Below, in pieces: positions 5,404 to 43,614 of a stretch of DNA of 43,614 nt; position 1 is the first letter of the stretch, and every line of letters begins with the position of its first letter. Location: positions 1-43,614 of IMG/VR virus record IMGVR_UViG_3300020442_002649, one strand, 5' to 3'. The stretch comes from a virus. The position numbers and the translations under genes are program-made. The notes beneath the pieces were generated by a model that searched no databases, had not been told where the DNA came from, and worked only from the letters and a program-made list of their open reading frames with translations.

Positions 5404-5408
5404 GTAGA

Positions 5409-5416: not shown

Positions 5417-5424
5417 TTAGCAGT

Positions 5425-7914: not shown

Positions 7915-7936
7915 AATTTTAATCCTTCATACATAC

Positions 7937-10366: not shown

Positions 10367-11123
10367 GATATATCCTTATACCGTTATCTTTTGCTCTATG
10401 CATATGGTGACTCCATTTTCCTGAATGACTTGTTGTATATATGTGTATGTTTTCAGGATGGAAATATACCTGAGATAAATGTAAAAATCCACTGTCTATG
10501 CCTACGTGTAATTTTGCTTTTGTCATTGCGTATGCTATGTGTTTTAAACTGTTCTTCAAATAATTATTTTGCGATTCTCCACCAACAACGACTACATCAT
10601 AGTCATTATACTTGTTTAGAATTTTTTGTTGCATACCACTGTTAATACTACGCCTACGTGAAGTACTATCCCACTGAACTGTAATAAACTTGTCAGGTAG
10701 AGACAAGTCGTTACTACAGTCTTCGGCTTTTAATTGCGGAAAATATTGCAAACAACTTGTTAGGTCAACACCTTCGCTAGGTTCAAATCTCTGAGGATAG
10801 TCTTTGTATATTTGTGCTTTTGCATTGTAATATCCTTGTGATCTGACATAATTTACAAAGTCAGAATTACTCCTAGGTTCAAACTCTAAATGTGGGATTA
10901 TGTTAACTTTGTTATCTGGAAAAAGATCTAAAATCTCTGCCCAGCTTTCTGGTTTATTTCTATTCCAATGATGTTTGGTCAAATGTAAATTAACACTATC
11001 ATCATTTGCAAGTGCATAGTTATAAGATAATAATACACTATGTACCCTATCTCCTAAACCTGGTGCTCCGTAAATAAAGTTTTTCTTAACCGTGCTAAAC
11101 GCTCGCATCACTAAATTTATCAA
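10356..11123 (-). CDS. GT9-like glycosyltransferase (heptosyltransferase-type), TTG start
   Basis: This 255-aa protein has an N-terminal GAPGLGDRVHSVLLSYNYA glycine-rich loop and a C-terminal half with YDVVVVGGES and LHVGIDSGFLHLSQVY. The last is the G-x-D-S/T-G-x-x-H-x-x motif of GT9 (ADP-heptose:LPS heptosyltransferase-like) enzymes. It is shorter than typical heptosyltransferases (about 320-350 aa). The first codon is TTG at 11123: GGAGG lies seven bases upstream and the start shares TTGA with the previous stop. The in-frame ATG at 11108 has no ribosome-binding site. It could use ADP-heptose made by the HldE/HldD genes at 39109-41608; that link is inference. Confidence 0.65.
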   Translation of the reverse strand: MINLVMRAFSTVKKNFIYGAPGLGDRVHSVLLSYNYALANDDSVNLHLTKHHWNRNKPESWAEILDLFPDNKVNIIPHLEFEPRSNSDFVNYVRSQGYYNAKAQIYKDYPQRFEPSEGVDLTSCLQYFPQLKAEDCSNDLSLPDKFITVQWDSTSRRRSINSGMQQKILNKYNDYDVVVVGGESQNNYLKNSLKHIAYAMTKAKLHVGIDSGFLHLSQVYFHPENIHIYTTSHSGKWSHHMHRAKDNGIRIYHES

Positions 11124-11905
11124 CCAATTGCCTCCATTAACTTTGTAACATTTTCTCCGTGTTCTGGTAAAAGGTCTTTTAAGAAAAAATGTATAAAACG
11201 TGCTTCGGGCAAATGTTTATCATCTATGCCCTTGAACAATCCATTCCAACGCCAATTCATGTTAAGCGTAGGAATGTTTTCTTTCTTTACCCAATAATTT
11301 AACAGCATTTGATCTGTTGACCATTTACGATAACCAATACCGTCAACAAAGTCTTTGAACTCAGGTCTGCGTATAAACTGTTCTGCTGTTTGTCCTTTAA
11401 GATATGGTAAAAACTTTTTACTGTTAATGACCATCATTCCCATGTTATAGAATTCAGCACCAAGTTCATTCCATTTCCAATCTACGTCTTTAATATTTTC
11501 AAATGCGGCTTTGCTATATTTTCTTATCTTGCTTTTATATTTTTTTGAACAAGGAAGCTCTCTTTCTGCTACGGCACCAAAGGCATATTCATCAGTTAGG
11601 TCCCAAAATATATTAGGTGCTTCTTGTCTTATGTAAATGTCGCTATCTATGATTGCTACTTGTTCGTATTCATTTAGATATGTAAATGCATTTTCTTTCT
11701 CGTATATAGGCATATAACCAAGACGTTCAACTGCTTCTTTGCTACGTCCTGTGACAGCCATATCTGGTCTAATTTTTAATATTGGCTCACGTTGAACTAT
11801 GTGTGTCATATTATATTTGTTACAATAGTCTGCAACGCTTTGTATACAATGCTCATACAGATTGCTTTGTTTTCCAACAGCAACCTGATAAATCATTCTT
11901 TTCAT
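11120..11905 (-). CDS. GT-A-type glycosyltransferase
   Basis: The 261-aa protein carries EQVAIIDSDIYI with a DSD motif at 87-89, preceded by a long loop rich in charged residues. Later come FYNMGMMVINSKKF, which resembles the (F/L)N(S/T)G(V/M)(M/L) motif of GT8-like enzymes, and W-S-T-D-Q-M-L-L, the expected acidic position before the C-terminal W-N-G and a histidine in ARFIHFF. This order fits a nucleotide-sugar-dependent GT-A transferase. Stop/start ATGA-type coupling joins it to the GT25-like gene upstream. Sugar specificity unknown. Confidence 0.75.
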   Translation of the reverse strand: MKRMIYQVAVGKQSNLYEHCIQSVADYCNKYNMTHIVQREPILKIRPDMAVTGRSKEAVERLGYMPIYEKENAFTYLNEYEQVAIIDSDIYIRQEAPNIFWDLTDEYAFGAVAERELPCSKKYKSKIRKYSKAAFENIKDVDWKWNELGAEFYNMGMMVINSKKFLPYLKGQTAEQFIRRPEFKDFVDGIGYRKWSTDQMLLNYWVKKENIPTLNMNWRWNGLFKGIDDKHLPEARFIHFFLKDLLPEHGENVTKLMEAIG

Positions 11906-12471
11906 TTTAAGTCCTTTGTAAAACTCATTTTATCTGATTTATATGTAACCTTTTCTTCCATATCAAATTCCATATCTACTATACCATCACAAAGCATCCA
12001 GTCAGCAGGCATTGCTCCATTGTTATGCACCCAATCTAAAAGTTTTTTTGCACCTACTGGACGCAGAAGATATGCTCTTGCTCCTTCATACCAAGTACCT
12101 GCTGGAATAGGTTTTGCTTTTTTAAATCCTTCAAATTTATAAACGTCTGTTTGAATAATTGATCCCATTGGTTTTTTAAAAATTACATCATGTTCAAATA
12201 CACATATAGATTGTTGTTCTAGAAAACATCTTTGCCATAAAAGATATTGGCTTAAAAAGCAACCTTGTACTCCTGGAGATTCCATTAGTCTTTTACATTT
12301 TTTATTTTGTTTATATGCAAAAAGATTATGATCTGATAAGTTTTCTTTTGTGCCGTCGACACCAGGAAATAAAGATACGTCCCAACCATGAAACCTTCCT
12401 GTTTCTAATGCACGAATGGCCATGTTTACACTGTTTTCATATTTTGGCAAGTATACTATGTAACCTTTCAT
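11902..12471 (-). CDS. Short GT25-like glycosyltransferase
   Basis: This 189-aa protein has FPGVDGT, then GCFLSQYLLWQRC and ICVFEHDVIF (EHD 93-95), GARAYLLRPVGAKKL and MPADWMLCD. This is the same motif order as the GT25-like protein at 6093-6767 (S-x-Y-x-L-W, ExD, Y-x-L/I, P-x-D). It is shorter, lacking part of the middle loop, so it is a distinct family member and not a recent duplicate. It overlaps both neighbours by four bases. Likely adds a sugar to a surface glycan. Confidence 0.7.
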   Translation of the reverse strand: MKGYIVYLPKYENSVNMAIRALETGRFHGWDVSLFPGVDGTKENLSDHNLFAYKQNKKCKRLMESPGVQGCFLSQYLLWQRCFLEQQSICVFEHDVIFKKPMGSIIQTDVYKFEGFKKAKPIPAGTWYEGARAYLLRPVGAKKLLDWVHNNGAMPADWMLCDGIVDMEFDMEEKVTYKSDKMSFTKDLK

Positions 12472-13316
12472 GGTAGATCTCTTATTTCTTTAAGTATTTT
12501 TTGATACCAGTGTTCTGGTAGCCATTTTACTTGTGCTGATTTAAATCTTTTATCTTCTTTTTTACTTCCTTTTCCTGTGCTAAAAATTTCATCTCTTTTC
12601 ATGCCCCATGCATTCCATTTGTAAGGAATTTTTTCCCAATGTTTGTTTAGCTTGGCCCATTCTGCTATAACTGCTTTTAAGACATCTTGATCAACGTACC
12701 AATATATGCCTTTTTCAAATGCTTCTATCATTCTTGTGCTAAACAAATCTCTAAATTGCATTCCATCATCATCTATTCCTAAACACAATGCACTTGCAAT
12801 AAAAACACCAGGATCTTTTGGCTTGGGCATTACTGCAACGTATTTTGTTAAGTGCCTAAAATCATTTGTATGAAATCCGTTACGCAAAATTGTATCGCAA
12901 TCAATTTGAAAGATATGTTGATGTGGATTTTTAAACAATTGATTCAATCTCATAAATCTTACACTTGCTAGATATGTCCGCCTTGCAATATAATCCAAGT
13001 CATCTGTTTTAAAAATATGTCTACCTTCTTTCATTCGTTGATGATTTTTATCTAAGTTTGCATAAAAGTCTTTTGTTACTGTTTCGTATGTATAGGTAAA
13101 TTTATAATTATTTTGTAATTGATCTAAAACGTTTTTATTCATATTACCTTCATTGATAATATGACAATGTACATGCACCCATCCTACAGTTCTATTAATA
13201 CTTTGTTGCAAAGCATATCCATGCCTATCAAAGTAGTCATAGTCGCAACTAAAAAATACAATGTCCTTGCAATCTTCTGGTACACATCTTCCTTCTAATG
13301 GTGGTAATCTAAACAT
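12468..13316 (-). CDS. GT-A-type glycosyltransferase-like protein
   Basis: The 282-aa product has DIVFFSCDYDYF near the N-terminus, ARRTYLASVRFMRLNQLF (about 111-128) and HIFQIDCDTIL with a DCD motif at 139-141. GVFIASALCLGI and WYVDQDVLKAVI, containing the D-Q-D acidic pair before the C-terminus, follow. R-x-x-x-L..DxD..DQ is the arrangement of GT8-like and other retaining GT-A enzymes. It ends with a lysine-rich tail. It overlaps the FkbM gene upstream by eight bases. Donor and acceptor unknown. Confidence 0.7.
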   Translation of the reverse strand: MFRLPPLEGRCVPEDCKDIVFFSCDYDYFDRHGYALQQSINRTVGWVHVHCHIINEGNMNKNVLDQLQNNYKFTYTYETVTKDFYANLDKNHQRMKEGRHIFKTDDLDYIARRTYLASVRFMRLNQLFKNPHQHIFQIDCDTILRNGFHTNDFRHLTKYVAVMPKPKDPGVFIASALCLGIDDDGMQFRDLFSTRMIEAFEKGIYWYVDQDVLKAVIAEWAKLNKHWEKIPYKWNAWGMKRDEIFSTGKGSKKEDKRFKSAQVKWLPEHWYQKILKEIRDLP

Positions 13317-13989
13317 CTGGACTTATTCCCGGTCTATGGCCAAGCACTGCATTCTTTTCGCCTTTGCCTAGTTTTCTTATCATTCTATACCCTAATGGCA
13401 TTAGAATATCTCTTATACTATCTCGCTTATATCCATAACGTTCAGGATGATCTTTTCGTTCGTATAAGATAATTGGTTTATACTTTTCAATTGTTTTTAA
13501 TGCACCTTTTATAACTAAAGGTTCATAACCTTCTGCGTCTATTTTTATAAAATCAACATTTTGTATTTCAAAACTATCTAAAGTTTTAATTTTGTATTTT
13601 CCTGTTTTCTTATCAGGATCTACATGAGTACCAAAACTTTTGTTTGTTGTTTTTATGTCAACATCTTTTTCTACATCACCTATACCAACAGGATGAGTTG
13701 TACAGTTGTGAACACCTTTCATGTTTAAGTTATGATGTAGACAAGGAAGTAAATTTGTGTTTACTTCAAAAGCATGTACATGTTCAAATGACTGGCTCAA
13801 TCTAAATGCTGTAATTCCAACATGAGCTCCTATATCAACAGCGATACGTAGTTTTGCACAATGAGATATTGCTGTCTGTAATTCAATGTTTTGATATTCT
13901 TCTATTTTTCCCATGCCCTGTTTCTTGGCACTTTTCAAACAAATATCGTCTTTAATGGTTTGCCAACCATCTAATGTAATATAATTCAT
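13309..13989 (-). CDS. FkbM-family SAM methyltransferase
   Basis: This 226-aa protein has AVDIGAHVGIT at residues 50-60 (motif I), HAFEVNTNLLPCLHHNL (motif II; acidic residue binding the SAM ribose) and VDFIKIDAEGYEPLVIKGA, the hallmark D-x-E-G-x-E block of FkbM methyltransferases. FkbM enzymes O-methylate sugars and other hydroxyls and occur often in O-antigen and capsule clusters and in marine phages. Length is normal. It starts in a four-base overlap with the GT-B gene upstream. The assignment is firm, the substrate not known. Confidence 0.88.
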   Translation of the reverse strand: MNYITLDGWQTIKDDICLKSAKKQGMGKIEEYQNIELQTAISHCAKLRIAVDIGAHVGITAFRLSQSFEHVHAFEVNTNLLPCLHHNLNMKGVHNCTTHPVGIGDVEKDVDIKTTNKSFGTHVDPDKKTGKYKIKTLDSFEIQNVDFIKIDAEGYEPLVIKGALKTIEKYKPIILYERKDHPERYGYKRDSIRDILMPLGYRMIRKLGKGEKNAVLGHRPGISPDV

Positions 13990-14756
13990 CTCTTTACCTG
14001 ATACTTAAATGTACAACGCCATGCGGTTCCGTCTTCATAGTCGTCTCTACTAAACTGACTCCAAGCGATATGTTCTAACATTGCCATTCTGTCAAAACCA
14101 AATTGATTGTTCCAATGTTGCACAGCACTTTGGCCTAGTATTTCTATAGGTTTGCCCAAGCACAGAGATTCGACTGCGGCCATGCTGTGATAGGTTATAA
14201 CTTTTTTTGCTTTTTTTATCATAGGAAGAATTTCCTGCCACCTTTGCTTTCTTTTTCCTATTTTTTCTCTTATTACTAAAGGACCTTGTCCTTCATAGTA
14301 TTTAATAGTTTTGGTTCTCCACGAATCGTAATCTTGTCCCATATATCTAAATATATTACTTTGATTAGGCATGACCAATAGATTATAATCGCCATCTGCA
14401 TTCCATTCGCCCCACAGGCTATCGTCAAGTTCAAGAAGCTTTCTTCTACTTTCTTTTACTGGACGTACAACAGTATTTTGTAATGAATTGTAACTTATTC
14501 TATAGTGCATAGGTCTTTTGTGCTTATGGTTGCCTATGTAACCATTGTCAATATGAAAAAAATTTATTGACTTGTCTTTAGTAATTGCATCAAACACCCA
14601 ATCATCAAATGGATGACTAAATGCTAGATATCTATCTTTTTCTATTTCTTCTGATTTTGTGATTGTCTTTACATCACAGTGTTTGTAAAGAAAACTGAAT
14701 ATTTGTCCACGTAATAATTTGCTATTTTCTGGTACCTGAAACTTATAGTGTTGCAT
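13986..14756 (-). CDS. GT-B-like glycosyltransferase (paralogue 4 of 4)
   Basis: The 256-aa protein is the shortest of the four paralogues. It shares FFHIDNGYIGN with the one at 3080-3946, has NLLVMPNQSNIF and LVIREKIGKRK where others have RPHP, and ends with VITYHSMAAVESLCLGKPIE and LEHIAWSQFSRDDYEDG. It lacks the ANTDL element before the tail. It is the first gene of the island and overlaps uvsY by 14 bases, so the island joins the recombination operon without a gap. Predicted cytoplasmic transferase; sugar unknown. Confidence 0.65.
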   Translation of the reverse strand: MQHYKFQVPENSKLLRGQIFSFLYKHCDVKTITKSEEIEKDRYLAFSHPFDDWVFDAITKDKSINFFHIDNGYIGNHKHKRPMHYRISYNSLQNTVVRPVKESRRKLLELDDSLWGEWNADGDYNLLVMPNQSNIFRYMGQDYDSWRTKTIKYYEGQGPLVIREKIGKRKQRWQEILPMIKKAKKVITYHSMAAVESLCLGKPIEILGQSAVQHWNNQFGFDRMAMLEHIAWSQFSRDDYEDGTAWRCTFKYQVKR

Positions 14757-31580: not shown

Positions 31581-31600
31581 TATTTATGCTCTGATAAATA
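31581..31600. promoter_or_regulatory. Divergent pair of late-promoter motifs between gp13 and gp14
   Basis: CATAAATA on the minus strand (31581-31588) points to gp13 and ends 20 bases before its ATG. GATAAATA on the plus strand (31593-31600) points to gp14 and ends eight bases before its ATG. The motifs are four bases apart, so the two promoters would compete for the same polymerase footprint. The plus-strand one is the only promoter candidate seen for the 10-kb unit that includes the halogenases. Confidence 0.65.
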
Positions 31601-31608: not shown

Positions 31609-32766
31609 ATGCCGAGACTCAGTTTATATAAACCCGAAAAGGGAAAAGATTACGAATTTTTAGACAAAACCATTACAGAAATGTTCACTGTAGGTGGTAC
31701 AGATGTGTATGTACACAAGTTTTTAGGACCTAAAAATCCTGCTACTGGTACAGCTACAGCAGGCACTCCAGAATATGATGCTGTAAAAGAAACTAACATA
31801 CAGGACCTGGTTTTCCTTGAAAATAGAGATAGGAAATATGATCCAGACGTCTTTACTATGCGTGGAATATACAATGTTGCTGACATTGATTTTGATTTAA
31901 GTCAGTTTGGATTATTTTTAGCACAGGATATTTTATTTCTTACAGTGCCAATTAATTCATGTATAAAAACGTTAGGTAGAAGAATTATTCCTGGTGATGT
32001 TATTGAGTTGCCTCACCTAAAAGACGATCATGCATTTAACCAATTTGATTTTGCTCTAAAAAGATTTTATGTAGTAGAAGATGTAAACAGAGCAAGTGAA
32101 GGATTTTCACAAACTTGGTATCCACACTTATATAGATTAAAATTAAAACAGATTTACGATACACAAGAATATAAAGATATACTTGATCAAAAAGCAAGCG
32201 AAGGTTCTGACACAACTCTAAGAGATTTGATGTCAACTTACAATAAAGAAATTGAAATAAATGATGCTGTTGTAAAACAAGCTGAAGCTGATGCAGGTAA
32301 ATCAGGTTACGAAACAAGTCATTTATACACACTACAAGTTGATGAAAAAGGTGTCACTGAACTTGTAACTACAGATACAAGTGAATTAGATGCAAGCACA
32401 CAAAATGAGTTAGCAGATAGAATACATCAAACTCCTGAAAGAGAAGGATATGAAGGTTATTTAATTGGTGACGGTATAGCACCAAATGGAGAAGCATTTG
32501 GAAGTGGTATTGGATTTCCAAGCTCTAGTGCAAAAGGTGATTATTTCCTACGTACAGATTTGTTTCCAAACAGACTTTTTAGATATGATGGAAAGAGATG
32601 GGTCAAAATGGAAGATAATATTAGAGTTAACCTAAGCAATTCAGATACTAAACAGACGCAAAAAGGAACTTTTGTTAATAATACAAAATCTTCAAGCATC
32701 GGCGGAGACACTGTACAAGAAAGACAGAGCCTATCGCAAGCACTTAAACCTAAGGCAGACAATTAA
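31609..32766 (+). CDS. gp14: Neck protein (gp14-like)
   Basis: The 385-aa protein (T4 gp14 256 aa) begins MPRLSLYKPEKGKDYEF and has TEMFTVGGTDVYVHKFLG, ETNIQDLVFLENRDRKYD and IPGDVIELPHLKDDH. The N-terminal 200 residues are the conserved gp14 part; the order E-x-x-I-Q-D-L-x-F-L-E-N-R matches T4-like neck proteins. The extra C-terminal region includes GDYFLRTDLFPNRLFRYDGKRW (about 310-332), a module also found in gp15 and gp18. The ATG at 31609 is chosen for the conserved MPR start although no ribosome-binding site is present; a longer frame from 31561 runs through the promoter. Confidence 0.8.
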   Translation: MPRLSLYKPEKGKDYEFLDKTITEMFTVGGTDVYVHKFLGPKNPATGTATAGTPEYDAVKETNIQDLVFLENRDRKYDPDVFTMRGIYNVADIDFDLSQFGLFLAQDILFLTVPINSCIKTLGRRIIPGDVIELPHLKDDHAFNQFDFALKRFYVVEDVNRASEGFSQTWYPHLYRLKLKQIYDTQEYKDILDQKASEGSDTTLRDLMSTYNKEIEINDAVVKQAEADAGKSGYETSHLYTLQVDEKGVTELVTTDTSELDASTQNELADRIHQTPEREGYEGYLIGDGIAPNGEAFGSGIGFPSSSAKGDYFLRTDLFPNRLFRYDGKRWVKMEDNIRVNLSNSDTKQTQKGTFVNNTKSSSIGGDTVQERQSLSQALKPKADN

Positions 32767-34223
32767 TGCAACACTTTTATGATGGACAAATACGAAGATA
32801 CATTACACAGCTGATCCGCTTGTTTAGTAATTTTAAATATAAGGATGGCGAAGGTAAGGAAGTAAAAATTCCTGTACTTTATGGCGATTTGTCTAGACAG
32901 GTTGCAAGTATTGTAAGAGATCAAAGCGAAAACAAATTACCATCTGCTCCAAGAATGGCCTTGTACATCACACAACTTGAACAGGATAGAACTAGAACTT
33001 CAGATTCTAGCTTTACGAGCAAGGTTCATATTAGAGAAAGAGCGTTTGATGAAGCAGGCAATGAATATTTGAATACACAAGGAAAGAATTATACAGTTGA
33101 GCGTTTGATGCCTACACCGTATAACTTATCCGTCAATCTTGATATTTGGTCAACAAACACAGATATGAAGTTGCAAATTATGGAACAACTATTAATGTTG
33201 TTCAATCCAAGTTTGGAGATACAAACGACAGACAATTACGTTGATTGGACCAGCTTGACAAGTGTTGAATTGACAAACATTAACTTTACAAATAGAAGTA
33301 TACCGGCAGGAACAGATAGTGAAATAGACATAGCACAGCTAGGATTTATCACACCAATATATTTAAACATGCCTGCAAAAGTTAAAAAGTTAGGAGTCAT
33401 AACAAATGTTGTTATGAGTATTTTTGACGAAACTAAAGGCACAATAGATTTAAAAACATCAATGCCAGAGTTACAAGCATACAGTGATTCAGAAAACAAT
33501 CAACCTAAAACAGATTTACAAACTGGATTAGTTGAAAAAGATGGCATAAAAATAATGACAGGAAATTACCAAGACTATGATGTATTGGTAATGGGTAACA
33601 TTGCACAGGTAGTTGATAGAGGTAAGGTCGGTACAATAGATTGGATCAAAGTATTAGATCCTCATCCAGGTGAATATAGAGCTGGATTATCTCAAATAAT
33701 GTTGAGAAGAAAACTGATCGAAGGCGAATCTGGTAGTATTAGTATCAACGGAACTATAACAATTAACGAATTAGACAGAACACAATTACTAATTACATGG
33801 GATCAAGATACTATTCCAACAAACACTAACCTTACAACACCAAGTGGAAGAAACAATCAAGGTTCAGTAGATTTTATTATTGATCCAGGTAAGTTTAATC
33901 CTACTACTGCAAAAACAGCCGGTTTAAGGTTATTGCTTTTAGGAGCTATTAATACAAGTAAAAATGTAAATGAAGCAAGTTACGATGGTCCAGATGCATG
34001 GAAAAATGTGGACGGAACAGAGTTTGTGGCAGGAGAAAATGATATTGTGGAATGGGACGGAACACAATGGCATGTTGTTTTTGATGCCAGCACAGACGAC
34101 GGTAGCACAACCAAGTATATTACCAACCTAAATACAGGTGTTCAATATAGATGGACAGGTACAGAATGGATATTAAGCTGGGAAGGCGAATATCAAAAAG
34201 GTACTTGGCGCCTAGCACTTTAA
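32766..34223 (+). CDS. gp15: Proximal tail sheath stabilisation protein (gp15-like)
   Basis: The 485-aa protein opens MQHFYDGQIRRYITQLIRLFSNF. It continues with EVKIPVLYGDLSRQVA and RLMPTPYNLSVNLDIWSTN with MKLQIMEQLLMLFNPSLEI, matching the T4 gp15 layout (272 aa: YFYNSSFRRY, IPITYASKE, PIKMIYELSIFTR, QIVEQILPYFQP). gp15 caps the finished tail and joins it to the neck. The added C-terminal 200 residues carry two tryptophan modules (W-D-G-T-Q-W near 430 and W-T-G-T-E-W near 462). Stop and start overlap with gp14 as TAATG. Confidence 0.88.
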   Translation: MQHFYDGQIRRYITQLIRLFSNFKYKDGEGKEVKIPVLYGDLSRQVASIVRDQSENKLPSAPRMALYITQLEQDRTRTSDSSFTSKVHIRERAFDEAGNEYLNTQGKNYTVERLMPTPYNLSVNLDIWSTNTDMKLQIMEQLLMLFNPSLEIQTTDNYVDWTSLTSVELTNINFTNRSIPAGTDSEIDIAQLGFITPIYLNMPAKVKKLGVITNVVMSIFDETKGTIDLKTSMPELQAYSDSENNQPKTDLQTGLVEKDGIKIMTGNYQDYDVLVMGNIAQVVDRGKVGTIDWIKVLDPHPGEYRAGLSQIMLRRKLIEGESGSISINGTITINELDRTQLLITWDQDTIPTNTNLTTPSGRNNQGSVDFIIDPGKFNPTTAKTAGLRLLLLGAINTSKNVNEASYDGPDAWKNVDGTEFVAGENDIVEWDGTQWHVVFDASTDDGSTTKYITNLNTGVQYRWTGTEWILSWEGEYQKGTWRLAL

Positions 34224-34236: not shown

Positions 34237-34677
34237 ATGAGCCAGGATATTATATGTAGTGGCGCTCTCTTCTATTCTCTAGAAAGCAAGAGGTTTTTGT
34301 TACTGCACAGAACACAAAGTAAACAGAAAAATGTTTGGGGATTAGTAGGTGGTACTAATGGTAAAAATGAATCACCGTGGCCGGCACTACAACGTGAGAT
34401 TCAAGAAGAAATAGGATCTGCACCTGACATTAAAAAGACTATTCCTTTAGAAACGTTTGTAAGCACAGATAGTAAGTTTCAATTTCATACGTATTTGTGT
34501 GTAATAGAAAATGAATTTATTCCAAAATTAAACGACGAACATGATGGATATGCTTGGGTTAGTTTTGGTAAATGGCCGAAACCTTTACATCTTGGATTAA
34601 GAAATACTTTACAAAATAAAACCAATCAAACAAAACTAAAAACAGTATTTGATTTGATAACACTATTGGAGAAGTAA
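34237..34677 (+). CDS. NUDIX hydrolase
   Basis: The 146-aa protein contains a complete NUDIX box, GGTNGKNE followed by seven residues and REIQEEIGS (G-x5-E-x7-REUxEExG), with WGLVGGT before it as usual. NUDIX enzymes cleave nucleoside diphosphates linked to another group, such as nucleotide sugars, NAD(P)H or oxidised dNTPs; the specificity is not readable. It lies between gp15 and the halogenases and ends one base before the next ATG. In this setting a nucleotide-sugar or flavin/NAD-related substrate is possible but speculative. Confidence 0.92.
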   Translation: MSQDIICSGALFYSLESKRFLLLHRTQSKQKNVWGLVGGTNGKNESPWPALQREIQEEIGSAPDIKKTIPLETFVSTDSKFQFHTYLCVIENEFIPKLNDEHDGYAWVSFGKWPKPLHLGLRNTLQNKTNQTKLKTVFDLITLLEK

Positions 34678-36189
34678 ATGAAAAAGATAAAAAACATTAC
34701 CATAGTGGGAGGTGGATCAGCGGCCTGGCTTGCGGCTACATATCTTCAAAATAATTTTTGGGACTTGCCGGTCACAGTTATAGACAAAGAAGTAGGAAAT
34801 CCAATTGGTGTTGGTGAAGCAACAGTTTTGACATTTCCGCATTTTCTTAGAAAATGTGGTATAAATTTACCTGAATGGTTTAAGAATATTGATGCTACAT
34901 ATAAAGCAGGCATAGAATTTCCGCATTGGAAGAATCCAAACAACACCGTATGGCATCCTTTTTACCTAAATAGAAGTTATATGGTAGATGCGTGTACGCA
35001 ATATGATATATGGGCAAATAATCAACATTTAGATTTTAAAAAAACTGCACTACCTACGTATGATGTAAACATGGCAAATAAATTAGATATGTGGGGATCA
35101 TTCGAAACCTTAGCATATCACATTGATGCAGGGAAATTAGTAAAAGAATTACAAAGGATATGCCACACAACGGTCAAAACTATTAAGAGCGATGTAGTCA
35201 AAGTAAACAAAGATTATGAGGGAAACATAATCAGTTTAGAATTAAAGAATGGAATGACTCATCACAGTGACTTTTATATAGATTGTACTGGCTTTGCAAG
35301 TATTTTAAAAGAAGCAAAACGTGTTGAACTATTAGGTAACGGTAGACTGTTTACCAATGCCGCTGTTGCTGGACACGTTCCATATGAAGACTTTGAAAAA
35401 GAGTGTGTGCCATATGTAAAATGTCCTGCTGTAGATCACGGATGGATTTGGAAGATTCCTGTGCAATCACGCATAGGTTCAGGATTGGTATTTAACAAAG
35501 ACATTACTGATCCCGAAGAAGCAAAACGTTACTTTTGTGAACATTGGGATAACAGAATTAAACCTGAAGATTTAAAATTAATTGACTGGGTACCTTACTA
35601 CAGTAAGAACTTCTGGGAAAATAATGTAGTATCCATTGGGTTAAGTGGTGGATTTATAGAACCTTTAGAGTCAACTGGTCTTGCAAGTATGACTACTGGT
35701 GTAGAAAAACTAATGGACATGATTCCACAGTATGCATATAATGAAGCTAACATAGAAACATACAACAGGGAAATGGAATTTTGGTATAATGATGCTGTTG
35801 ATTTTGTAAACAGTCATTATGCGGATACTGAATGGAGTACACCTTTTTGGAATTTTGTAAAGGAAACGCATGTCAAATCCGAAAAACATTTATGGTATGA
35901 GGACTGGTTGAAGGATTCAGACAGAAAATTTTATACCCCTGTGCAATCTAGAACATTATTTCATCCACCAAACTGGCATCTATGGTTAATACAAATGGGA
36001 TATCCAGTTAATGTTGATCTAAGTTACATGCCGCCAGGCAAACAAGAATTTTTATTGAATGATTTTCAAAAGGCAGAAGAAGTACGTATGCATACAAGTA
36101 TAAAACATATCGATGCTATCAAGTCAACAAATCTTGGATTAGATTGGTTTGCGTTATCAATTGCAAGAGGAGATAGAGGCCAATTATGA
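34678..36189 (+). CDS. Flavin-dependent (tryptophan-type) halogenase 1
   Basis: The 503-aa protein has the FAD loop IVGGGSAAWLAA (9-20), GNPIGVGEAT (40-49), a catalytic-type lysine at 76 in ATYKAGIEFPHW, the halogenase signature WIWKIP (256-261) and EPLESTGL (328-335) with the expected glutamate. All sequence hallmarks of FADH2-dependent tryptophan halogenases (PrnA/RebH type, about 510-540 aa) are present. They form HOCl-derived lysine chloramine or bromamine to halogenate an aromatic substrate. Substrate is unknown and no flavin reductase is encoded here. It is immediately behind NUDIX and overlaps halogenase 2 by four bases. Confidence 0.92.
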   Translation: MKKIKNITIVGGGSAAWLAATYLQNNFWDLPVTVIDKEVGNPIGVGEATVLTFPHFLRKCGINLPEWFKNIDATYKAGIEFPHWKNPNNTVWHPFYLNRSYMVDACTQYDIWANNQHLDFKKTALPTYDVNMANKLDMWGSFETLAYHIDAGKLVKELQRICHTTVKTIKSDVVKVNKDYEGNIISLELKNGMTHHSDFYIDCTGFASILKEAKRVELLGNGRLFTNAAVAGHVPYEDFEKECVPYVKCPAVDHGWIWKIPVQSRIGSGLVFNKDITDPEEAKRYFCEHWDNRIKPEDLKLIDWVPYYSKNFWENNVVSIGLSGGFIEPLESTGLASMTTGVEKLMDMIPQYAYNEANIETYNREMEFWYNDAVDFVNSHYADTEWSTPFWNFVKETHVKSEKHLWYEDWLKDSDRKFYTPVQSRTLFHPPNWHLWLIQMGYPVNVDLSYMPPGKQEFLLNDFQKAEEVRMHTSIKHIDAIKSTNLGLDWFALSIARGDRGQL

Positions 36190-37643
36190 AGATAGTTGTA
36201 GTAGGTGGAGGAAGTGCTGGTTGGATGACAGCCGCATATTTAAAAAACAAATTACCCAAGCATAATATTACAGTTGTTGATAAAGAACACGGAAATCCAG
36301 TAGGAGTAGGTGAAGCTACAATAATTGACTTTGCACAATATATGGAAGAAGCAGGATTTGACAGAGATGAATGGATTCCTGCATGTAGAGCTACAATTAA
36401 AGCAGGCATACTGTTTCCTAACTGGTTAAGAAAAGGATTAGAAGTTTGGCATCCTTTCTTTATAAATTTTTATGACATGCAAAATGATGCCGACATTTGG
36501 GATTATTGGTCAGCAAATAAAAAATATCCTTACAAAGATTATGCAATAATGATGTATGACAGTGCCGTAAGACACAACAAAATTGATCCTAATGATCTAA
36601 GCAGTTATGCTTATCATGTTGATTGTGGAGCAATGGTGCAATATATCCAGCAAAAAATCAGCTCTCATATACATCTAATAAAACAAGATGTAATTCATGT
36701 TGAAAAACAAGGACAAGAAATACAACACCTATTGTTAAAAAATGGACAAATGGTACATGCTGATTTATTCATAGATTGTACTGGCTTTAAAAGTTTACTA
36801 AAAAAACAAGATAGAGTGGATTTATCCAAGAGATTATTCTGTGATACAGCCGTTGCTGGTAGAGTAGAATACAAGGATGAAAGCGAATTTGTACCTTATG
36901 TTGTTTGTGATGCAGTTGATCACGGTTGGATTTGGAAAATACCAACACAGGATAGAATGGGCTCTGGTTTGGTATTTAAAAGAAGCATTACTGATCCAGT
37001 AGAAGCAGTAGCTTATTTTTGCAGGTATTGGGATGACAGAATAAAACCTGATCAAACAAAAGTGATAGATTGGACACCTTACTATAGTAGAAATTTCTGG
37101 GAAGGTAATGTAGTATCAATAGGACTCAGCGGAGGATTTATTGAACCTTTAGAATCAACAGGTTTGAGTTGCATGATCAAAGGTATCAAACATTTGGAAG
37201 AAAGAATAAGAATAGGTTACACAGATCAGAATGATAGAAATTACTATAACACAAGACTTGGCTGTTATTATGAAAATGCAATAGATTTTGTTAATATGCA
37301 TTATTCTAAAACAGAACTATCTAGTAAGTTTTGGGATTATGTAAAAGAAAATCACACTCCTAGTGATTATCAACTTTGGATGGAAGATGTGATGCGTGAT
37401 CCTGGCTTTAGAAATCACGTTGCTGTTCAAACACAGAACACAAATACAATTTTCCATCCATCGAGTTGGTTTGCTTGGATGGCACAGTTTGAATTTGAAT
37501 TTAATCCTGAGAAGCATTCATTTAAAACTGAAATAGCTGAATCAAAATTGCTTGATTTTTATGCAGAAGAACAATCTCGTAAAGATAGATGTGTGGATCA
37601 TAAAGCATATATAGAATCGTTTGGAGGACTCAAATGGAAATAG
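36186..37643 (+). CDS. Flavin-dependent (tryptophan-type) halogenase 2
   Basis: The 485-aa protein is the closest relative of halogenase 1 in this window: VVGGGSAGWMTAAYL, GNPVGVGEAT, ATIKAGILFPNW (lysine 72), VDHGWIWKIPTQDRMGSG and GFIEPLESTGLSCM. The shared VDHGWIWKIP and SGGFIEPLESTGL blocks show that the pair arose by duplication and then diverged throughout. Its N-terminus lacks the short extension of halogenase 1. All catalytic positions remain, so it should be active on its own substrate or position. Overlaps: four bases upstream, ten bases with halogenase 3. Confidence 0.92.
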   Translation: MKIVVVGGGSAGWMTAAYLKNKLPKHNITVVDKEHGNPVGVGEATIIDFAQYMEEAGFDRDEWIPACRATIKAGILFPNWLRKGLEVWHPFFINFYDMQNDADIWDYWSANKKYPYKDYAIMMYDSAVRHNKIDPNDLSSYAYHVDCGAMVQYIQQKISSHIHLIKQDVIHVEKQGQEIQHLLLKNGQMVHADLFIDCTGFKSLLKKQDRVDLSKRLFCDTAVAGRVEYKDESEFVPYVVCDAVDHGWIWKIPTQDRMGSGLVFKRSITDPVEAVAYFCRYWDDRIKPDQTKVIDWTPYYSRNFWEGNVVSIGLSGGFIEPLESTGLSCMIKGIKHLEERIRIGYTDQNDRNYYNTRLGCYYENAIDFVNMHYSKTELSSKFWDYVKENHTPSDYQLWMEDVMRDPGFRNHVAVQTQNTNTIFHPSSWFAWMAQFEFEFNPEKHSFKTEIAESKLLDFYAEEQSRKDRCVDHKAYIESFGGLKWK

Positions 37644-39112
37644 TGGTAGTAGGTGGAGGTACTGCTGGCTGGCTTGCCGCTTTGATGATATCTAAAATCA
37701 AACCAGAGCATACTGTCACAGTAATCGAAAGTTCTAAAATAGGAATAATCGGAGCAGGAGAAGGAAGCACAGGTTCACTAACAACTATTGTACAAAACGA
37801 AATGTATAATCTAGGTTGTGTCGAACAAGATTTTGTGAAAGAATGTGATGCTACACTTAAACTTGGGATCAAACATATTAATTGGAACAAGGATGTGTCT
37901 GGTCATTACATTGCTCCTATAGACGGATCTCCTACTTCTAATGATCGTTGTGATATTGTATTTCAACATGCACTAGGATATAGAGATCAAAATTTATTAC
38001 ATCTAGCAACTGAACTAGGATATAAAATACACCACAACAAAAATAGTTTTGTAGAAAAAGATGGTAATCATGCATATCATTTTGATGCACATAAGGTAGG
38101 AAAATATTTTAAAAAAATTAGCAATACTGCACACATTGACAGTGAAGTAGAAAACGTAGTTTTAAATTCAGAAACAGGTTGGATAGAGAAACTAAAATTA
38201 AGTAACGGACAAACGATCCAAGGTGATATGTTTATTGATGCAAGTGGATTTAATCAAATCCTAATGAAAGCTGTAGGAGGTAAATGGAAAAGTTACAAAA
38301 AGAACTTACCTGTGAACAGTGCATTACCATTTTTGTTACCTTACGAAGAAGATGAAATAATAGAACCTGTAACAAACGCTTGGGCTCAAAACAACGGATG
38401 GTGTTGGCAAATTCCAACATTGCATAGACGAGGTTGTGGTTATGTGTTTTGTGATGATTTTGTTACACCTGAACAAGCACAAGATGAATTAGAAAAAACA
38501 ATTGGTAAAAAGGTAGATCCTATACGATTACTGAAATTTGAAAGTGGCCGACAAGAGAAACTTTGGATTAAAAATGTTTTATCAGTAGGCTTGTGTGCGG
38601 CTTTTGCAGAACCATTAGAAGCAACAAGTATTCATACAACTATCATGCAATTAAAACATTTTGTTTTTGGTTGTCTGAGTAATACAGCTGAAATTACTTG
38701 TAACGATGCACAGATAGATTCATATAATAACATCAATGGACATCTTTACGATACTGTCAAGGACTTTTTAGTTGCTCATTATACCTGCGGTAGAAATGAT
38801 ACTGAATTTTGGAAATACATAGATAGTGGTGCTACTATTACTCCGTTTGTAGAAGATATTCATGCAATGTGTAAACACAGAGTGCCAAATGCAACTTTAT
38901 TTCCTAGACAAGAAGGTAGTGCAGGATGGCCGTTATGGAGTTATGTGCTTGCAGGTACAGGTAAGTTAAGCGACGAAGTTTGTAGAAAAGAAATAATTTA
39001 CAATAACGATGAACTTGTTGGAAATGCTTCATACATTGATTTCGTTGACAAATTTGATTTAATGGCAAATCATCTGCCAGACAATACAGAGTATATCAGG
39101 AACATGCAGTGA
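37634..39112 (+). CDS. Flavin-dependent (tryptophan-type) halogenase 3, divergent
   Basis: The 492-aa protein keeps the fold signatures but in a different flavour: VVGGGTAGWLAALMI, IGAGEGSTGSLT in place of GVGEAT, ATLKLGIKHINW (lysine 76), WCWQIPTLHRRGCGYVF and FAEPLEATSIHTT. Thus WxWxIP and the catalytic lysine and glutamate are present, while the flavin-loop and substrate-side residues differ from halogenases 1 and 2, implying a distinct substrate. It may come from an older duplication or separate acquisition. It ends in a GTGA overlap with hldE. Confidence 0.9.
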   Translation: MEIVVVGGGTAGWLAALMISKIKPEHTVTVIESSKIGIIGAGEGSTGSLTTIVQNEMYNLGCVEQDFVKECDATLKLGIKHINWNKDVSGHYIAPIDGSPTSNDRCDIVFQHALGYRDQNLLHLATELGYKIHHNKNSFVEKDGNHAYHFDAHKVGKYFKKISNTAHIDSEVENVVLNSETGWIEKLKLSNGQTIQGDMFIDASGFNQILMKAVGGKWKSYKKNLPVNSALPFLLPYEEDEIIEPVTNAWAQNNGWCWQIPTLHRRGCGYVFCDDFVTPEQAQDELEKTIGKKVDPIRLLKFESGRQEKLWIKNVLSVGLCAAFAEPLEATSIHTTIMQLKHFVFGCLSNTAEITCNDAQIDSYNNINGHLYDTVKDFLVAHYTCGRNDTEFWKYIDSGATITPFVEDIHAMCKHRVPNATLFPRQEGSAGWPLWSYVLAGTGKLSDEVCRKEIIYNNDELVGNASYIDFVDKFDLMANHLPDNTEYIRNMQ

Positions 39113-40359
39113 TAAAAATATACGGTGATATCATGTTAGATCGATGGGTCTATGGTACTTGTGATCGCGTGAGTCCAGAAGCACCCATACTTGTGATGAA
39201 GGAAGATGAATACACATACAGTATTGGTGGTGCAGGCAATTTAGCAACCAATTTAGCAAGTATAAGTGATAATGTACAACTCTATAGTTGCGTTGCTAAG
39301 GACAAAGAAGGAAATAAACTGCAAGAATTATTGAATAAAACAAATATCAATTGCTATATAGAAGACGATGCCGAAATGACTACTACCAAGACAAGGTTTG
39401 TTGGTCAAGGAGGGCAACAGGTTATGCGTTGGGACAGAGAACGCTTGTATACCGAAGATACTATCATTGAAAAACTTATTGATCAATTAGGATCAAACGA
39501 TATTGTTTGCATAAGTGATTATGCAAAAGGAACTGTAAAAGTCAATACCGTAAGTCAGTTATTTCGTAGAGCTAAAGTTTTAGTAGATCCAAAACAATCT
39601 GAATATTTTTATGACGGAGCATATCTTGTTAAACCTAATATGAAAGAATATGTGGAATGGTTTGGAGAATTTGACGAAATAGATGCTGGAAATATTATGA
39701 GAAAACATAATTGGCAGTGGTTAGTAGTTACGGACGGTGCGAATGGTATGCATGTTCTTTGTGAAGATACAAGATATAGACATTTCAAAGAACCTACCAA
39801 TCAGATAGTAGATGTTACAGGTGCAGGTGATACTGTGTTAGCAGTAATAGCACACTGTTTAGACTTAGGAAAAGATGTGTTTGAAGCATGTGAAACTGCC
39901 TGTTATGCATCTGCTAGAGCTGTAGAAAGACAAGGAACCACAGTAATATCAAAAAAAGATTTAAAAAGAAAAACCACAGTTTGGACAAATGGTGTGTTTG
40001 ATGTGCTACACAAAGGACATTTTGAATTACTAAAATATGCAAGTAAACAGGGCGATAAACTTATTGTAGGCATTAATAATGATGCAAGTGTTAAGCGCCT
40101 AAAAGGAGAAACTAGACCCATTAATGATGTAAATGAAAGAAAAGCTCAATTAGAAACACTACCATGGGTGGACCAGGTTGTAGTGTTTGAAGAAGATACA
40201 CCGTTAAATAAAATAAAAGAATACCAACCTGATATCATTGTCAAAGGGGGCGACTATAGTTTTGAAACAGTGGTAGGAAACGGTCTTGCAGAGGTAAAGA
40301 TCTTTCCAACAGTAGAAGGTGTCAGTACTACAAAAACAATAGGAAAGATTCAACAATGA
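39109..40359 (+). CDS. hldE: Bifunctional heptose-7-phosphate kinase / heptose-1-phosphate adenylyltransferase
   Basis: Residues 1-275 are a PfkB-type kinase: GDIMLDRWVYGTCDRVSPEAP, GGAGNLATNLA and DVTGAGDTVLA. Residues about 285-416 are the RfaE-type nucleotidyltransferase with TNGVFDVLHKGHFELL and GGDYSFETVVG. The two halves phosphorylate D-glycero-D-manno-heptose-7-phosphate and adenylylate the 1-phosphate. At 416 aa it is shorter than the E. coli enzyme (477), with a compact kinase. It starts at GTG (39109) overlapping the halogenase stop. GmhA and GmhB are not in the window, so the host would supply them. Confidence 0.93.
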   Translation: MIKIYGDIMLDRWVYGTCDRVSPEAPILVMKEDEYTYSIGGAGNLATNLASISDNVQLYSCVAKDKEGNKLQELLNKTNINCYIEDDAEMTTTKTRFVGQGGQQVMRWDRERLYTEDTIIEKLIDQLGSNDIVCISDYAKGTVKVNTVSQLFRRAKVLVDPKQSEYFYDGAYLVKPNMKEYVEWFGEFDEIDAGNIMRKHNWQWLVVTDGANGMHVLCEDTRYRHFKEPTNQIVDVTGAGDTVLAVIAHCLDLGKDVFEACETACYASARAVERQGTTVISKKDLKRKTTVWTNGVFDVLHKGHFELLKYASKQGDKLIVGINNDASVKRLKGETRPINDVNERKAQLETLPWVDQVVVFEEDTPLNKIKEYQPDIIVKGGDYSFETVVGNGLAEVKIFPTVEGVSTTKTIGKIQQ

Positions 40360-40766
40360 CGTTACTAGAAAAAATTACTAATAGAATTCCAGAATTTTGT
40401 TTAAGCCATTGGCTGTTTAGAATACCACTTGCTATTATTTTTATTCAGCAAGGTTTAGATAAAATTCCTGTTGATCCTGACACGGCCGCCGACTTTGGAT
40501 TACCTGTCCTGGTTTGGTGGGTAGTGGCTTACGGAGAACTAGGCAGTGGCTTAGGATTAATTGTTGGAGGATTGCTTGCAAGATGGTGGGAAGAAATAGG
40601 CGATCTGATAACAAGGTTTAGTGGCATTACTATTTGCTCAATAATGACCGGAGTCATATGGGTAGGTGAGCCAGAAAGTTTAATGGATGTGATACTTTAT
40701 GATAACCTACATGTTTTGTTATGGGTAGGCGGATTGTTTTTTGCTTTGAGAGGAAACAGAAGATAA
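40356..40766 (+). CDS. DoxX-family membrane protein
   Basis: The 136-aa protein has about four hydrophobic segments (near 19-37, 49-73, 90-104 and 113-131) and the DoxX-like opening WLFRIPLAIIFIQQGLDKI, with an arginine and a glycine-x-x-K-hydrophobic pattern. DoxX proteins are small inner-membrane proteins, sometimes linked to thiosulfate:quinone reduction or redox stress; many are uncharacterised. Here it separates hldE from the hldD-like gene with four-base and one-base overlaps, so it is translated with them. Its role in a heptose/halogenase operon is not known. Confidence 0.7.
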   Translation: MTLLEKITNRIPEFCLSHWLFRIPLAIIFIQQGLDKIPVDPDTAADFGLPVLVWWVVAYGELGSGLGLIVGGLLARWWEEIGDLITRFSGITICSIMTGVIWVGEPESLMDVILYDNLHVLLWVGGLFFALRGNRR

Positions 40767-41608
40767 TGAAAATATTGGTTACAGGACACAAAGGTTTTAT
40801 TGGTAGCCATATGGCTCAATATCTTGTACATAAAGGCCACGAAGTAGAAGGGTTTGATTACGTAGAAAACGTTGTTCCTGCTGTAGATCAGTATGATTGG
40901 GTAATACACCTAGGAGCAATATCAGACACCACAGAACGAGATGTCAACAAAGTTTGGAAACACAACTATGAATTTACCCTTAGATTATTGCAGGTTTGTG
41001 ATCATTACAGTACCAACATACAGTTAGCCAGCACAGCCGCAGTGTACGGCCCTAATACTGCGTTTAACGAGCAAGATCCCGTGTATCCACAAACACCTTA
41101 TGCATGGAGCAAATACCTAATTGACAAGTTTTTACTTGATAATGGTATTGATCAGTTCAATGCACTTGTGCAATCATACAGATATTTTAATGTTTATGGA
41201 CCTGGTGAAGGACACAAAGGTGACCAAATGAGTATGGTTAGTAAATTTCAAAGACAAGCATCGGAAGATGGTAAAATTAAGCTATTCAAAAATAGTAAAA
41301 ACTACAAAAGAGACCTTGTATGTGTTTACGATGTGGTAAGAATACATGAAGAAATGTTACATCAAGATACAAGTGGCTTGTATAATTTAGGGACAGCAAA
41401 AGCTGTAGATATAGAATCTGTAGCAAAAAGTATTGCAGAAAATACTGGTGCTGAAATAGAATATATTGATATGCCTGACAAGCTAAAAAATCAATATCAA
41501 GAATATACTTGTGCAGATAATGCCAAGCTACATAATACTATACCAATTAGACATTGGATTACTGTAGAAGAATATTTAAAGGATATAGTTCATGACAGAA
41601 CGACTTGA
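40766..41608 (+). CDS. hldD: NAD-dependent epimerase, HldD-like (ADP-heptose 6-epimerase)
   Basis: The 280-aa extended-SDR protein has MKILVTGHKGFIGSHMA (TGxxGxxG), STAAVYGP, YAWSKYLIDKFL (YxxxK) and SYRYFNVYGPGEGHKGDQMSMV. The R-Y-F-N-V-Y-G-P-x-E-x-H-K-G block is characteristic of HldD, the ADP-L-glycero-D-manno-heptose-6-epimerase (about 310 aa). Adjacent hldE supports this: both complete the ADP-heptose route. The ATG at 40766 overlaps the DoxX stop by one base; an in-frame upstream ATG at 40721 is inside DoxX and unlikely. Another nucleotide-sugar epimerase remains possible. Confidence 0.8.
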   Translation: MKILVTGHKGFIGSHMAQYLVHKGHEVEGFDYVENVVPAVDQYDWVIHLGAISDTTERDVNKVWKHNYEFTLRLLQVCDHYSTNIQLASTAAVYGPNTAFNEQDPVYPQTPYAWSKYLIDKFLLDNGIDQFNALVQSYRYFNVYGPGEGHKGDQMSMVSKFQRQASEDGKIKLFKNSKNYKRDLVCVYDVVRIHEEMLHQDTSGLYNLGTAKAVDIESVAKSIAENTGAEIEYIDMPDKLKNQYQEYTCADNAKLHNTIPIRHWITVEEYLKDIVHDRTT

Positions 41609-41987
41609 AGGTAAAGTAGAAAAAGGTTGGGGATACGAACTCATATGGGCAACCAACGACAAATACTGTGGGAAAATTATGGTATTTGAAAAAGTTGGTG
41701 CTAAATTTTCAATGCATTTTCACAGAGAAAAAGATGAAACTTGGTTTGTAAATAACGGAAAATTTCTTTTAAAATACATAGACACCAAAACATCACAGCT
41801 ACATGAACAAGAATTAACCGCTGGAATGACTTGGCATAATCCGCCATTACAACCTCATCAATTGATTTGCTTAGAGGCAAATAGTTCATTAACTGAGGTA
41901 AGCACTCCTGATTCAGTTGAAGATAATTATAGAATTGCTCCTGGCGATAGCCAAAAAGAACCTAAGCCTGAGCCTCGCCCCACTTAA
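41592..41987 (+). CDS. Single-domain cupin (mannose-6-phosphate isomerase-like)
   Basis: The 131-aa protein has KGWGYELIWA, then FSMHFHREKDETWFV (H42, H44, E49) and TWHNPPLQPHQLICLEA. This is a metal-binding cupin like the C-terminus of type II phosphomannose isomerases. It resembles the cupin half of the fusion at 4633-5403 but stands alone. It may isomerise or bind a phosphosugar. The ATG overlaps the hldD-like gene by 17 bases. The last 26 bases overlap the oppositely oriented virion protein gene; the C-terminus is proline-rich (KEPKPEPRPT) and probably disordered. Confidence 0.75.
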   Translation: MTERLEGKVEKGWGYELIWATNDKYCGKIMVFEKVGAKFSMHFHREKDETWFVNNGKFLLKYIDTKTSQLHEQELTAGMTWHNPPLQPHQLICLEANSSLTEVSTPDSVEDNYRIAPGDSQKEPKPEPRPT

Positions 41988-43614
41988 CAATTACGTTAGC
42001 AGGAGTTGTTGTTCCTGAAGTTTTATAAATGTTAATAGCCAACACGTCTGGTCCATTCGGGAACGTACCTCTACCACCTAGTGTAGTATTTGTAAGTTCT
42101 TTCAACAGTCCAAGATCCAATGTTGATCTTTCACCTGGCTGTGCAATAAATGAAAATACTGTTTCGCCCGGCTGTGCGTAAGGTGGTTGCTGGAACGTAA
42201 AGTTAATCAAATCTCCAGGACTTACAGTTCCGTTAAAGGCATTATTGAAAGTGACCTTAAAGTACTCTACGCCTGTTGTGCTTTGATCACCAAATAGCAA
42301 TGGTCCTTGTATATTAGATACATAAGATCCCGCTGGTAGTGTAATGTCGCCTTGGTTGGTTGGGTCACCGCTGGCATCACCAATCTCTGTACCGTTCTTT
42401 GCTCCACCTGAGTCCCAAACATTCTTTAGGAAAAGCAGTTGGTTTGGATTAACACTGTCGCCGCCTTTTTGGAATGTTTGTGTAGCACCGTTACTTGAGT
42501 TTGAATTTGACCTTTGTGAGAAATAAACCAAATATCTTCCGTAAATTGTTTGATCAACAATACTTTGAATTGTTGTACCTGCTGGGAAGTATTCGTTTCC
42601 TCCACCATCTGCATTAACCTCGTCACCAACAAGTAGGTTAGCTGTTTCCCAACTTGTTGCATCAAAGTATGCATAGTTTCTATTTGTTCTAAATGACCAC
42701 CATGGCATAAGTTGTGCTGTTGTTGTAACCTGTGTCATAACTGCCGCAGTTGTATATGTTGCAGTGTCACCTGAGTTCCAATTAACAGATGCACCAGATG
42801 CTACCTGTGCAAAACTTGGCTGACCTCCTTGAGCAAGACCTGACAGTCCTGTCCAACCTATATCATTTGGGTTGAGAGGATAGTTTTGCGGATTAAGTAT
42901 GCCCTCAATAACAATACCACCTGTAATTGGTGCATTCGAGTTTTGAGGATCAACTCCGTCTGAAGTAACCTCTAGTCCTTGCATTAGCAACTGAGCTCTG
43001 TTTAACAGTTCTCTGTCTCCTAAATCACCAACAATAGCATTTGAAACACTAGGTGCTAGGCGTAATAAGAAAGCTGTTTGTCGTGTTGTACTAACACTTA
43101 TACCAGATTCTGTATATGAGAAGATGTAACCTCTATCTTCATCAAACATACCATCTGTGATAAACGCTGAACCCCAGTGTGATATAAGCGGTGTAATAGT
43201 ATTACTAACAAGTATAACACCAGTTCGTGCTTGGTGTGCTGACGCAGGTCCTGCACTGTACTGTCTTGTAGCACCAGCTTGGAAATTGTTAAGAGTTGTA
43301 CCTCTAGTACAGTTTGTCAAAGTTTTTGTTGTATGATCAATAGTGGTGTAGGTAATCAATTCGTTATCAATGTAAACTGTACCTGAATCTGGGAAAAACT
43401 TAGATTCTTTAATTTGTATACTTGTTTGTGAATCAGTGATATCTGATTCAAGTTGACTAAATGCACCTTCGTTGGTTACTTCATAACGCACAGGTAAGTT
43501 ACCTGATCTCATAAACGCTTCTGTGTTTACGTTTGAATTACGCATTCTGTGACAGAATACAAAGTTACCATCAGCACCACGTGCCATCCAGTCAATGAAA
43601 CCAGCACCATACCA
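41962..43614 (-). CDS. Large virion structural protein, C-terminal part
   Basis: The frame is open to the right window edge; 550 codons are present, so this is the C-terminal part of a longer protein. It has YGAGFIDWMARGADGNFVFCHRM and NTEAFMRSGNLPVRYEV, a block I recall from large structural proteins of oceanic T4-like phages. VYIDNELITYTTID with NCTRGT, a beta-rich module seen in fibre/baseplate proteins, follows. The remaining residues are beta-rich with Ser/Thr/Asn/Gly. Baseplate- or fibre-associated function is likely; no T4 number can be given. It converges on the cupin gene with a 26-base overlap. Confidence 0.75.
   Translation of the reverse strand, partial: WYGAGFIDWMARGADGNFVFCHRMRNSNVNTEAFMRSGNLPVRYEVTNEGAFSQLESDITDSQTSIQIKESKFFPDSGTVYIDNELITYTTIDHTTKTLTNCTRGTTLNNFQAGATRQYSAGPASAHQARTGVILVSNTITPLISHWGSAFITDGMFDEDRGYIFSYTESGISVSTTRQTAFLLRLAPSVSNAIVGDLGDRELLNRAQLLMQGLEVTSDGVDPQNSNAPITGGIVIEGILNPQNYPLNPNDIGWTGLSGLAQGGQPSFAQVASGASVNWNSGDTATYTTAAVMTQVTTTAQLMPWWSFRTNRNYAYFDATSWETANLLVGDEVNADGGGNEYFPAGTTIQSIVDQTIYGRYLVYFSQRSNSNSSNGATQTFQKGGDSVNPNQLLFLKNVWDSGGAKNGTEIGDASGDPTNQGDITLPAGSYVSNIQGPLLFGDQSTTGVEYFKVTFNNAFNGTVSPGDLINFTFQQPPYAQPGETVFSFIAQPGERSTLDLGLLKELTNTTLGGRGTFPNGPDVLAINIYKTSGTTTPANVIVKWGEAQA

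Follow-up and report, generated by a model that had tools for sequence, protein, structure and literature searches.

Three flavin-dependent halogenase genes behind a predicted late promoter of a probable jumbo phage, with hints of late chemical decoration

Why would a phage carry three flavin-dependent halogenase genes in a row among its late structural genes, and what might their products halogenate? The question was raised by a stretch of 43,614 nucleotides (the whole of the DNA analysed, IMG/VR record IMGVR_UViG_3300020442_002649, hereafter the window), in which a sequence-only reading had described three consecutive, overlapping halogenase ORFs. Halogenases have been annotated in phages for a long time with no natural substrate known for them, and none was found in the literature searched.

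The halogenase locus, its predicted promoter and its phage lineage

The three ORFs were borne out at 34678-39112. All were found to be complete, with an overlap of 4 bases between Hal1 and Hal2 and of 10 bases between Hal2 and Hal3, and the heptose gene said to adjoin them was found directly after Hal3. The features of the window were as follows.

3936..14756, minus strand: glycan-type cluster with GT8, two GT25, FkbM and other methyltransferases
31593..31600, plus strand: late promoter motif GATAAATA, 8 nt 5′ of the likely gp14 start (ATG at 31609)
31609..32766, plus strand: gp14-position virion gene (PHROG 11591, virion structural protein)
32766..34223, plus strand: gp15, tail sheath stabiliser (PF16724, E 1.8e-25; PHROG 11196)
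34237..34677, plus strand: NUDIX hydrolase (PF00293, E 6.8e-15)
34678..36189, plus strand: Hal1, flavin-dependent halogenase of clade A (PF04820, E 1.3e-85)
36186..37643, plus strand: Hal2, flavin-dependent halogenase of clade A, accessory (PF04820, E 5e-89)
37634..39112, plus strand: Hal3, flavin-dependent halogenase of a separate deep phage clade (PF04820, E 1.4e-91)
39109..40359, plus strand: HldE-like heptose kinase/adenylyltransferase (PF00294, PF01467)
40356..40766, plus strand: DoxX-like membrane protein, variable (PF07681, E 1.2e-07)
40721..41608, plus strand: nucleotide-sugar epimerase (PF01370, E 5.9e-35; PHROG 540), true start probably at 40766
41592..41987, plus strand: cupin / cysteine-dioxygenase-like protein (PHROG 7851, E 2e-36)
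41962..43587, minus strand: C-terminal part of a virion structural protein, truncated at the window end (PHROG 5838, E 1.3e-92)

The gp14-position ORF was listed from 31561, and homology in the relatives places its start at 31609. The HldE-like gene was found to match PRK11316 at E 1e-102, yet its 344 bits lie below the cut-off of 521 bits; the cupin gene scored slightly under the cut-off of Pfam Cupin_2. The virion protein at the window end reaches about 1980 aa at full length in relatives. The DoxX-like gene was seen in the window and in one further contig group (L026) and was missing from most relatives. The glycan-type cluster was also found to contain a nucleotidyltransferase/mannose-P isomerase fusion and several unknowns, and this minus-strand run holds about 15 genes, many of which matched nothing in Pfam or PHROG.

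A single late-type promoter before gp14, gp15, the NUDIX gene and the halogenases had been proposed, and the motif was found at the place given above and kept in relatives. The exact T4 late motif TATAAATA was absent upstream of gp14, where GATAAATA was present instead. The window has eight G/TATAAATA sites, each 5-35 nt upstream of the ATG of a same-strand gene, with G commoner than T at the first position (6 of 8), and this placing is far above chance because the 40-nt zones before first starts make up only about 2% of strand positions. Upstream of gp14, 24 of 27 distinct sequences contained GATAAATA, two contained CATAAATA and one contained none. Since the gp14 motif is conserved and no further G/TATAAATA site was found from gp14 to Hal3 in the window, the sequence supports one predicted late promoter from which Hal1-3 would be read together with gp14-gp15-NUDIX. 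Scans of sigma-70 promoters and terminators gave no excess over chance. An inverted copy of the motif (GCATAAATA on the minus strand) was seen beside the gp14 site in many relatives, as would be expected if gp13 and gp14 were read from divergent late promoters.

The marine T4-like, cyanophage-type setting that had been implied was not upheld. The terminase (terL) was found to be closest to PA5oct/Wroclawvirus jumbo phages (54.6% identity) and gp15 to Agrobacterium phage Atu_ph07, Phosso and PA5oct-type phages, and the order gp14-gp15-NUDIX was the same in the PA5oct-type Pseudomonas phage Cassandra. Cyanophages as nearest kin were ruled out by the terminase and gp15, and no psbA-type gene was found in the long relatives G001, G002 and G004. 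Positions 20000-43614 of the window gave no near DNA match to named phages. The source is probably an uncultured, PA5oct-related jumbo phage, the marine origin of which we infer.

Halogenase family, paralogues and relatives

Two of the checks suggested earlier, an HMM search against PF04820 and structure prediction, favoured the family assignment. Hal1-3 were found to match PF04820 with 288-308 bits over the full length (curated cut-off 21, E 1e-85 to 1e-91) and PHROG 2928 at E 1e-101 to 1e-109. The AlphaFold models of Hal1 (pLDDT 92.1) and Hal3 (pLDDT 90.4) resembled solved flavin halogenases, with PyrH as the top match, at TM 0.82-0.89. Displacement of the catalytic Lys or Glu had been named as the finding that would count against halogenases; in the alignment of 113 proteins the Lys (K76 of Hal1) was conserved in 113 and the Glu (E331 of Hal1) in 112, with both residues in place in Hal1-3. 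The intact FAD loop and WxWxIP motif described for all three were confirmed as well. The GxGxxG-type loop reads GGGSAAW in Hal1 (with A at the last G), GGGSAGW in Hal2 and GGGTAGW in Hal3, and WxWxIP reads WIWKIP, WIWKIP and WCWQIP, respectively. The changed flavin loop reported for Hal3 was likewise seen (GAGEGS against GVGEAT).

The tunnel motif of flavin halogenases is Fx.Px.Sx.G (PMC8407142). It was matched by FIEPLESTG in Hal1 and Hal2, whereas FAEPLEATS of Hal3 falls outside it at two places and fits FX[DE]PX[EFL]. WHPF, with the HPF motif of indole halogenases, was found in Hal1 and Hal2, and Hal3 was without HPF. The activity of Hal3 is less certain because the tunnel-motif Ser and Gly and the HPF are missing. 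The dN/dS values against relatives were 0.04-0.14 for Hal1, 0.01-0.09 for Hal2 and 0.03-0.10 for Hal3 (0.012-0.144 overall), which indicates strong purifying selection and therefore genes that are maintained. Hal1-3 are apparently working PF04820 halogenases, intact as judged from their sequences.

In a tree of 113 rows, Hal1 and Hal2 were placed in a phage-only clade (clade A) with S-SSM7, Hal3 in another clade with a gene of S-RIM44, the Hal4 of relatives in a further clade with P-SSM2, and VirX1-like proteins made up a fourth; the bacterial rows mostly clustered by themselves, and RebH and PyrH stood apart. The relations among deep clades are unsure because this tree was a quick LG+G4 search with a long-branch warning; a mixture-model tree was made on clade A only. 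In the latter, the Hal1 orthologues formed a clade at 100/100 with Hal2 outside, and these orthologues shared 66-91% or more identity with the Hal1 of the window. The earlier description of Hal1 and Hal2 as recent-looking duplicates was thus overturned, being ruled out by their 45.7% identity and by the deep split from a Hal1 clade without Hal2. As Hal2 falls outside the Hal1 clade and Hal3 belongs to a deep phage clade separate from clade A, the triplet is, on the evidence of these trees, an assembly of old paralogues and not the product of a recent triplication.

The relatives from IMG/VR formed 70 contig groups when grouped by exact 500-base matches. Hal1 was followed directly by Hal3 in 44 of the 70, mostly with gp15-NUDIX upstream and, where the contig reaches, with HldE-epimerase-cupin downstream, while Hal2 came after Hal1 in about five groups (the window, L009, L010, L112 and L051). 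From this gene order, the conserved unit is the Hal1-Hal3 pair, with Hal2 read as an insertion between them. A divergent halogenase triplet was found in L052. The segment 4546-7905 of L051 was seen to share 66% (Hal1), 80% (Hal2) and 88% (partial Hal3) identity with the window, and these unequal values suggest segment exchange between phages at the locus.

The closest relative, G022 with 23.6 kb, was found to carry a fourth halogenase gene, Hal4, which is encoded on the minus strand some 12.5 kb past Hal3, at a place that lies beyond the window end. The Hal4 motifs were FVEPLEASS (A in place of the tunnel Ser and S in place of the Gly) and WMFRIP, with no HPF. In G001, Hal4 was surrounded by a gp10-like baseplate/tail-fibre connector, HAD, two 2OG-Fe(II) oxygenases, DUF6445 and a carbamoyltransferase. 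Six long records (G001, G002, G004, G009, G021 and G025) had both an oxygenase and a carbamoyltransferase gene close to Hal4. With split matches of one ORF counted once, four halogenases each were found in G003, G013, G016, G017 and G018 and five each in G014 and G015; among these uncultured phages, G015, G013, G003 and G014 correspond to contig groups L096, L098, L101 and L154, respectively. Genes of 2OG-Fe(II) oxygenases were also seen between or beside halogenases in L101, G014 and G015.

Candidate substrates and roles

The Trp lid, which holds the amino-acid moiety of tryptophan, is YYHGFETYS in PyrH and includes Y454, Y455 and E461 in RebH (PMC5945002, PMC8269204). This segment was not conserved in Hal1-3, and its absence means that they are probably not tryptophan halogenases, as far as sequence can tell. 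The lid is also absent from BrvH, which has a more open site (PMC5945002), and the active site of VirX1 is described as large and accessible (PMC8407142, review). The claim that no flavin reductase is visible agreed with searches for three reductase families, which gave no match: PF01613 was sought in 21 records related to the window, one of them a 262-kb contig, and PF00175 and PF03358 were sought in the window together with seven relatives.

The reading tentatively favoured here, with a chance somewhat short of even, is that a surface glycan or a virion protein is tailored late, with activity, halide, substrate and target all being predicted. Hal1-3 would be made late in infection alongside neck and tail proteins. 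If they work as known members of the family do, a host reductase would supply FADH2, which would react with O2 to give C4a-hydroperoxyflavin, from which Br-, Cl- or I- would yield hypohalous acid; this would travel along the tunnel and reach the catalytic Lys and Glu, where an electron-rich aromatic group would be halogenated. The substrate would be bulky and held in an open site rather than free tryptophan, and the aromatic group attacked would belong to a surface glycan, to a precursor of it, or to a protein of the virion or tail. The heptose, epimerase, cupin, carbamoyltransferase and 2OG-oxygenase genes may supply or co-modify the halogenated product.

Such late tailoring is supported by the family, the catalytic residues, the fold, the purifying selection, the late-promoter position, the missing Trp lid and the conservation of the neighbouring genes. 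A clade A halogenase adjoins HldE-like genes both in the group of the window and in S-SSM7-type phages, and the GT8, GT25, FkbM and other methyltransferase genes of the window itself count for glycan tailoring. Halogenases were found beside tail-fibre genes in the cultured phages P-TIM40, P-RSM6, S-RIM44, P-SSM2 and S-SRM01, and shortly past gp14-gp15, with a 2OG oxygenase, in HTVC008M. Against this stand the third halogenase of S-RIM44 and the halogenase of S-PM2, which lie near hli genes and not near tail-fibre genes, and the co-location with tail genes may be a mere insertion hot-spot of late operons. The dN/dS of HldE (0.21-0.26) was higher than that of the halogenases, a faster evolution that gives no support to a tight coupling of the two. 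A bolder form, that the lineage keeps as many as four divergent halogenase paralogues specific to phages, expressed late alongside the virion genes, to halogenate its own tail or virion proteins or the glycans attached to them, is unlikely; if true, it would be a halogen-based decoration of virus particles, so far undescribed.

The statement that the halogenases have no agreed function was correct, although a halogenated sugar- or amino-acid-derived product or a capsule decoration had already been proposed for the S-SSM6a cyanophage cluster (PMC7824862). A small halogenated secondary metabolite of this kind, or decoration of the host capsule, that helps the infected cell or excludes rivals would account for the related S-SSM6a/S-SSM7 cluster with its carbamoyltransferases, 2OG oxygenase, HldE-like genes and cupin (PMC7824862), for the same gene types around Hal4, and for one divergent triplet after which a 2OG oxygenase and a carbamoyltransferase come. 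However, the genes scanned showed no enzyme that would build a scaffold (NRPS, PKS, indole or phenol synthesis), and a late virion promoter is late timing for a metabolite that helps infection; this role is possible, if on the unlikely side. Still less probable is that the phage halogenates the free tryptophan or indole of its host through auxiliary metabolic genes, as the PHROG and Pfam family name, tryptophan halogenase, and the HPF of Hal1 and Hal2 might suggest, for all three proteins are without the lid (PMC5945002, PMC8269204), and this is very doubtful.

Loss of halogenation in one or more copies, Hal3 foremost, in favour of flavin monooxygenation or another flavin function would fit the replacement of the tunnel Ser by A and of the Gly by S and the lack of HPF in Hal3 and Hal4, as well as WMFRIP in Hal4. 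Yet Hal3 retains the Lys found in every aligned protein, the Glu and WxWxIP, a motif thought to block monooxygenation, and is under purifying selection, which leaves such a loss quite improbable, though less so than action on free tryptophan. That hypohalous acid serves as a diffuse weapon or defence (superinfection exclusion, or killing of competing phage) seems highly improbable: the acid is formed as an intermediate by these enzymes and several copies are present, but the family channels it inside the enzyme, and Hal1/2, Hal3 and Hal4 differ in their substrate-side motifs, which speaks for specific substrates. Taken with the fourth gene of the relatives, the three halogenases hint at a late chemical decoration of a surface molecule or of the phage's own particles. 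The conserved Hal1-Hal3 pair, the optional Hal2 and the fourth gene in long-enough relatives, kept by a whole lineage under strong selection and behind a late promoter motif, point to late, polymer-type targets, and they offer four enzyme subtypes to assay and more enzymes without the tryptophan lid, useful in biocatalysis.

Comparison with known systems

The PA5oct/Wroclawvirus phages (Arenbergviridae) resemble the window in terL and in the order of the gp14-position gene, gp15 and NUDIX but gave no halogenase match. VirX1 of cyanophage Syn10 (PDB 6QGM, the best PDB sequence match of Hal2) and its syn9 homologue share with Hal1-3 the phage PF04820 family, the fold, the catalytic residues and the missing Trp lid, and syn9 also carries two halogenases in tandem; they differ in forming a clade separate from clade A and from the Hal3 clade, at about 25-32% identity, and in that the VirX1 phage is a cyanophage whereas that of the window is of the PA5oct-type jumbo kind. 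A preference for iodide would be a further mark of the VirX1 type.

Bacterial arrays in Sphingomonadales, Caulobacterales and Alteromonadales likewise contain 2-4 PF04820 genes, but these are cellular, occupy a separate part of the tree and lie in several cases near TonB-dependent receptors and glycoside hydrolases; such arrays were seen in the bacterial genomes L177, L186, L197, L201, L202 and L237. The tandem pairs of P-TIM40, P-RSM6, S-RIM44 and syn9 have adjacent, overlapping halogenase ORFs as in the window, yet they are pairs, belong to other clades and lie mostly by tail-fibre and 2OG oxygenase genes. The S-SSM6a/S-SSM7 cluster (PMC7824862) contains a clade A halogenase of about 40% identity to Hal1 and Hal2, together with HldE-like genes, an epimerase and a cysteine-dioxygenase-like cupin near gp13/gp14. 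S-SSM7 has a single halogenase there, whereas the window has three in a gp14-gp15-NUDIX operon, and carbamoyltransferase and 2OG genes were found in relatives of the window with Hal4, past the window end. Phage halogenases (VirX1), tandem pairs and the halogenase/heptose/carbamoyl cluster of S-SSM6a are thus already known, and the locus is a well-conserved, enlarged version of known phage halogenase loci.
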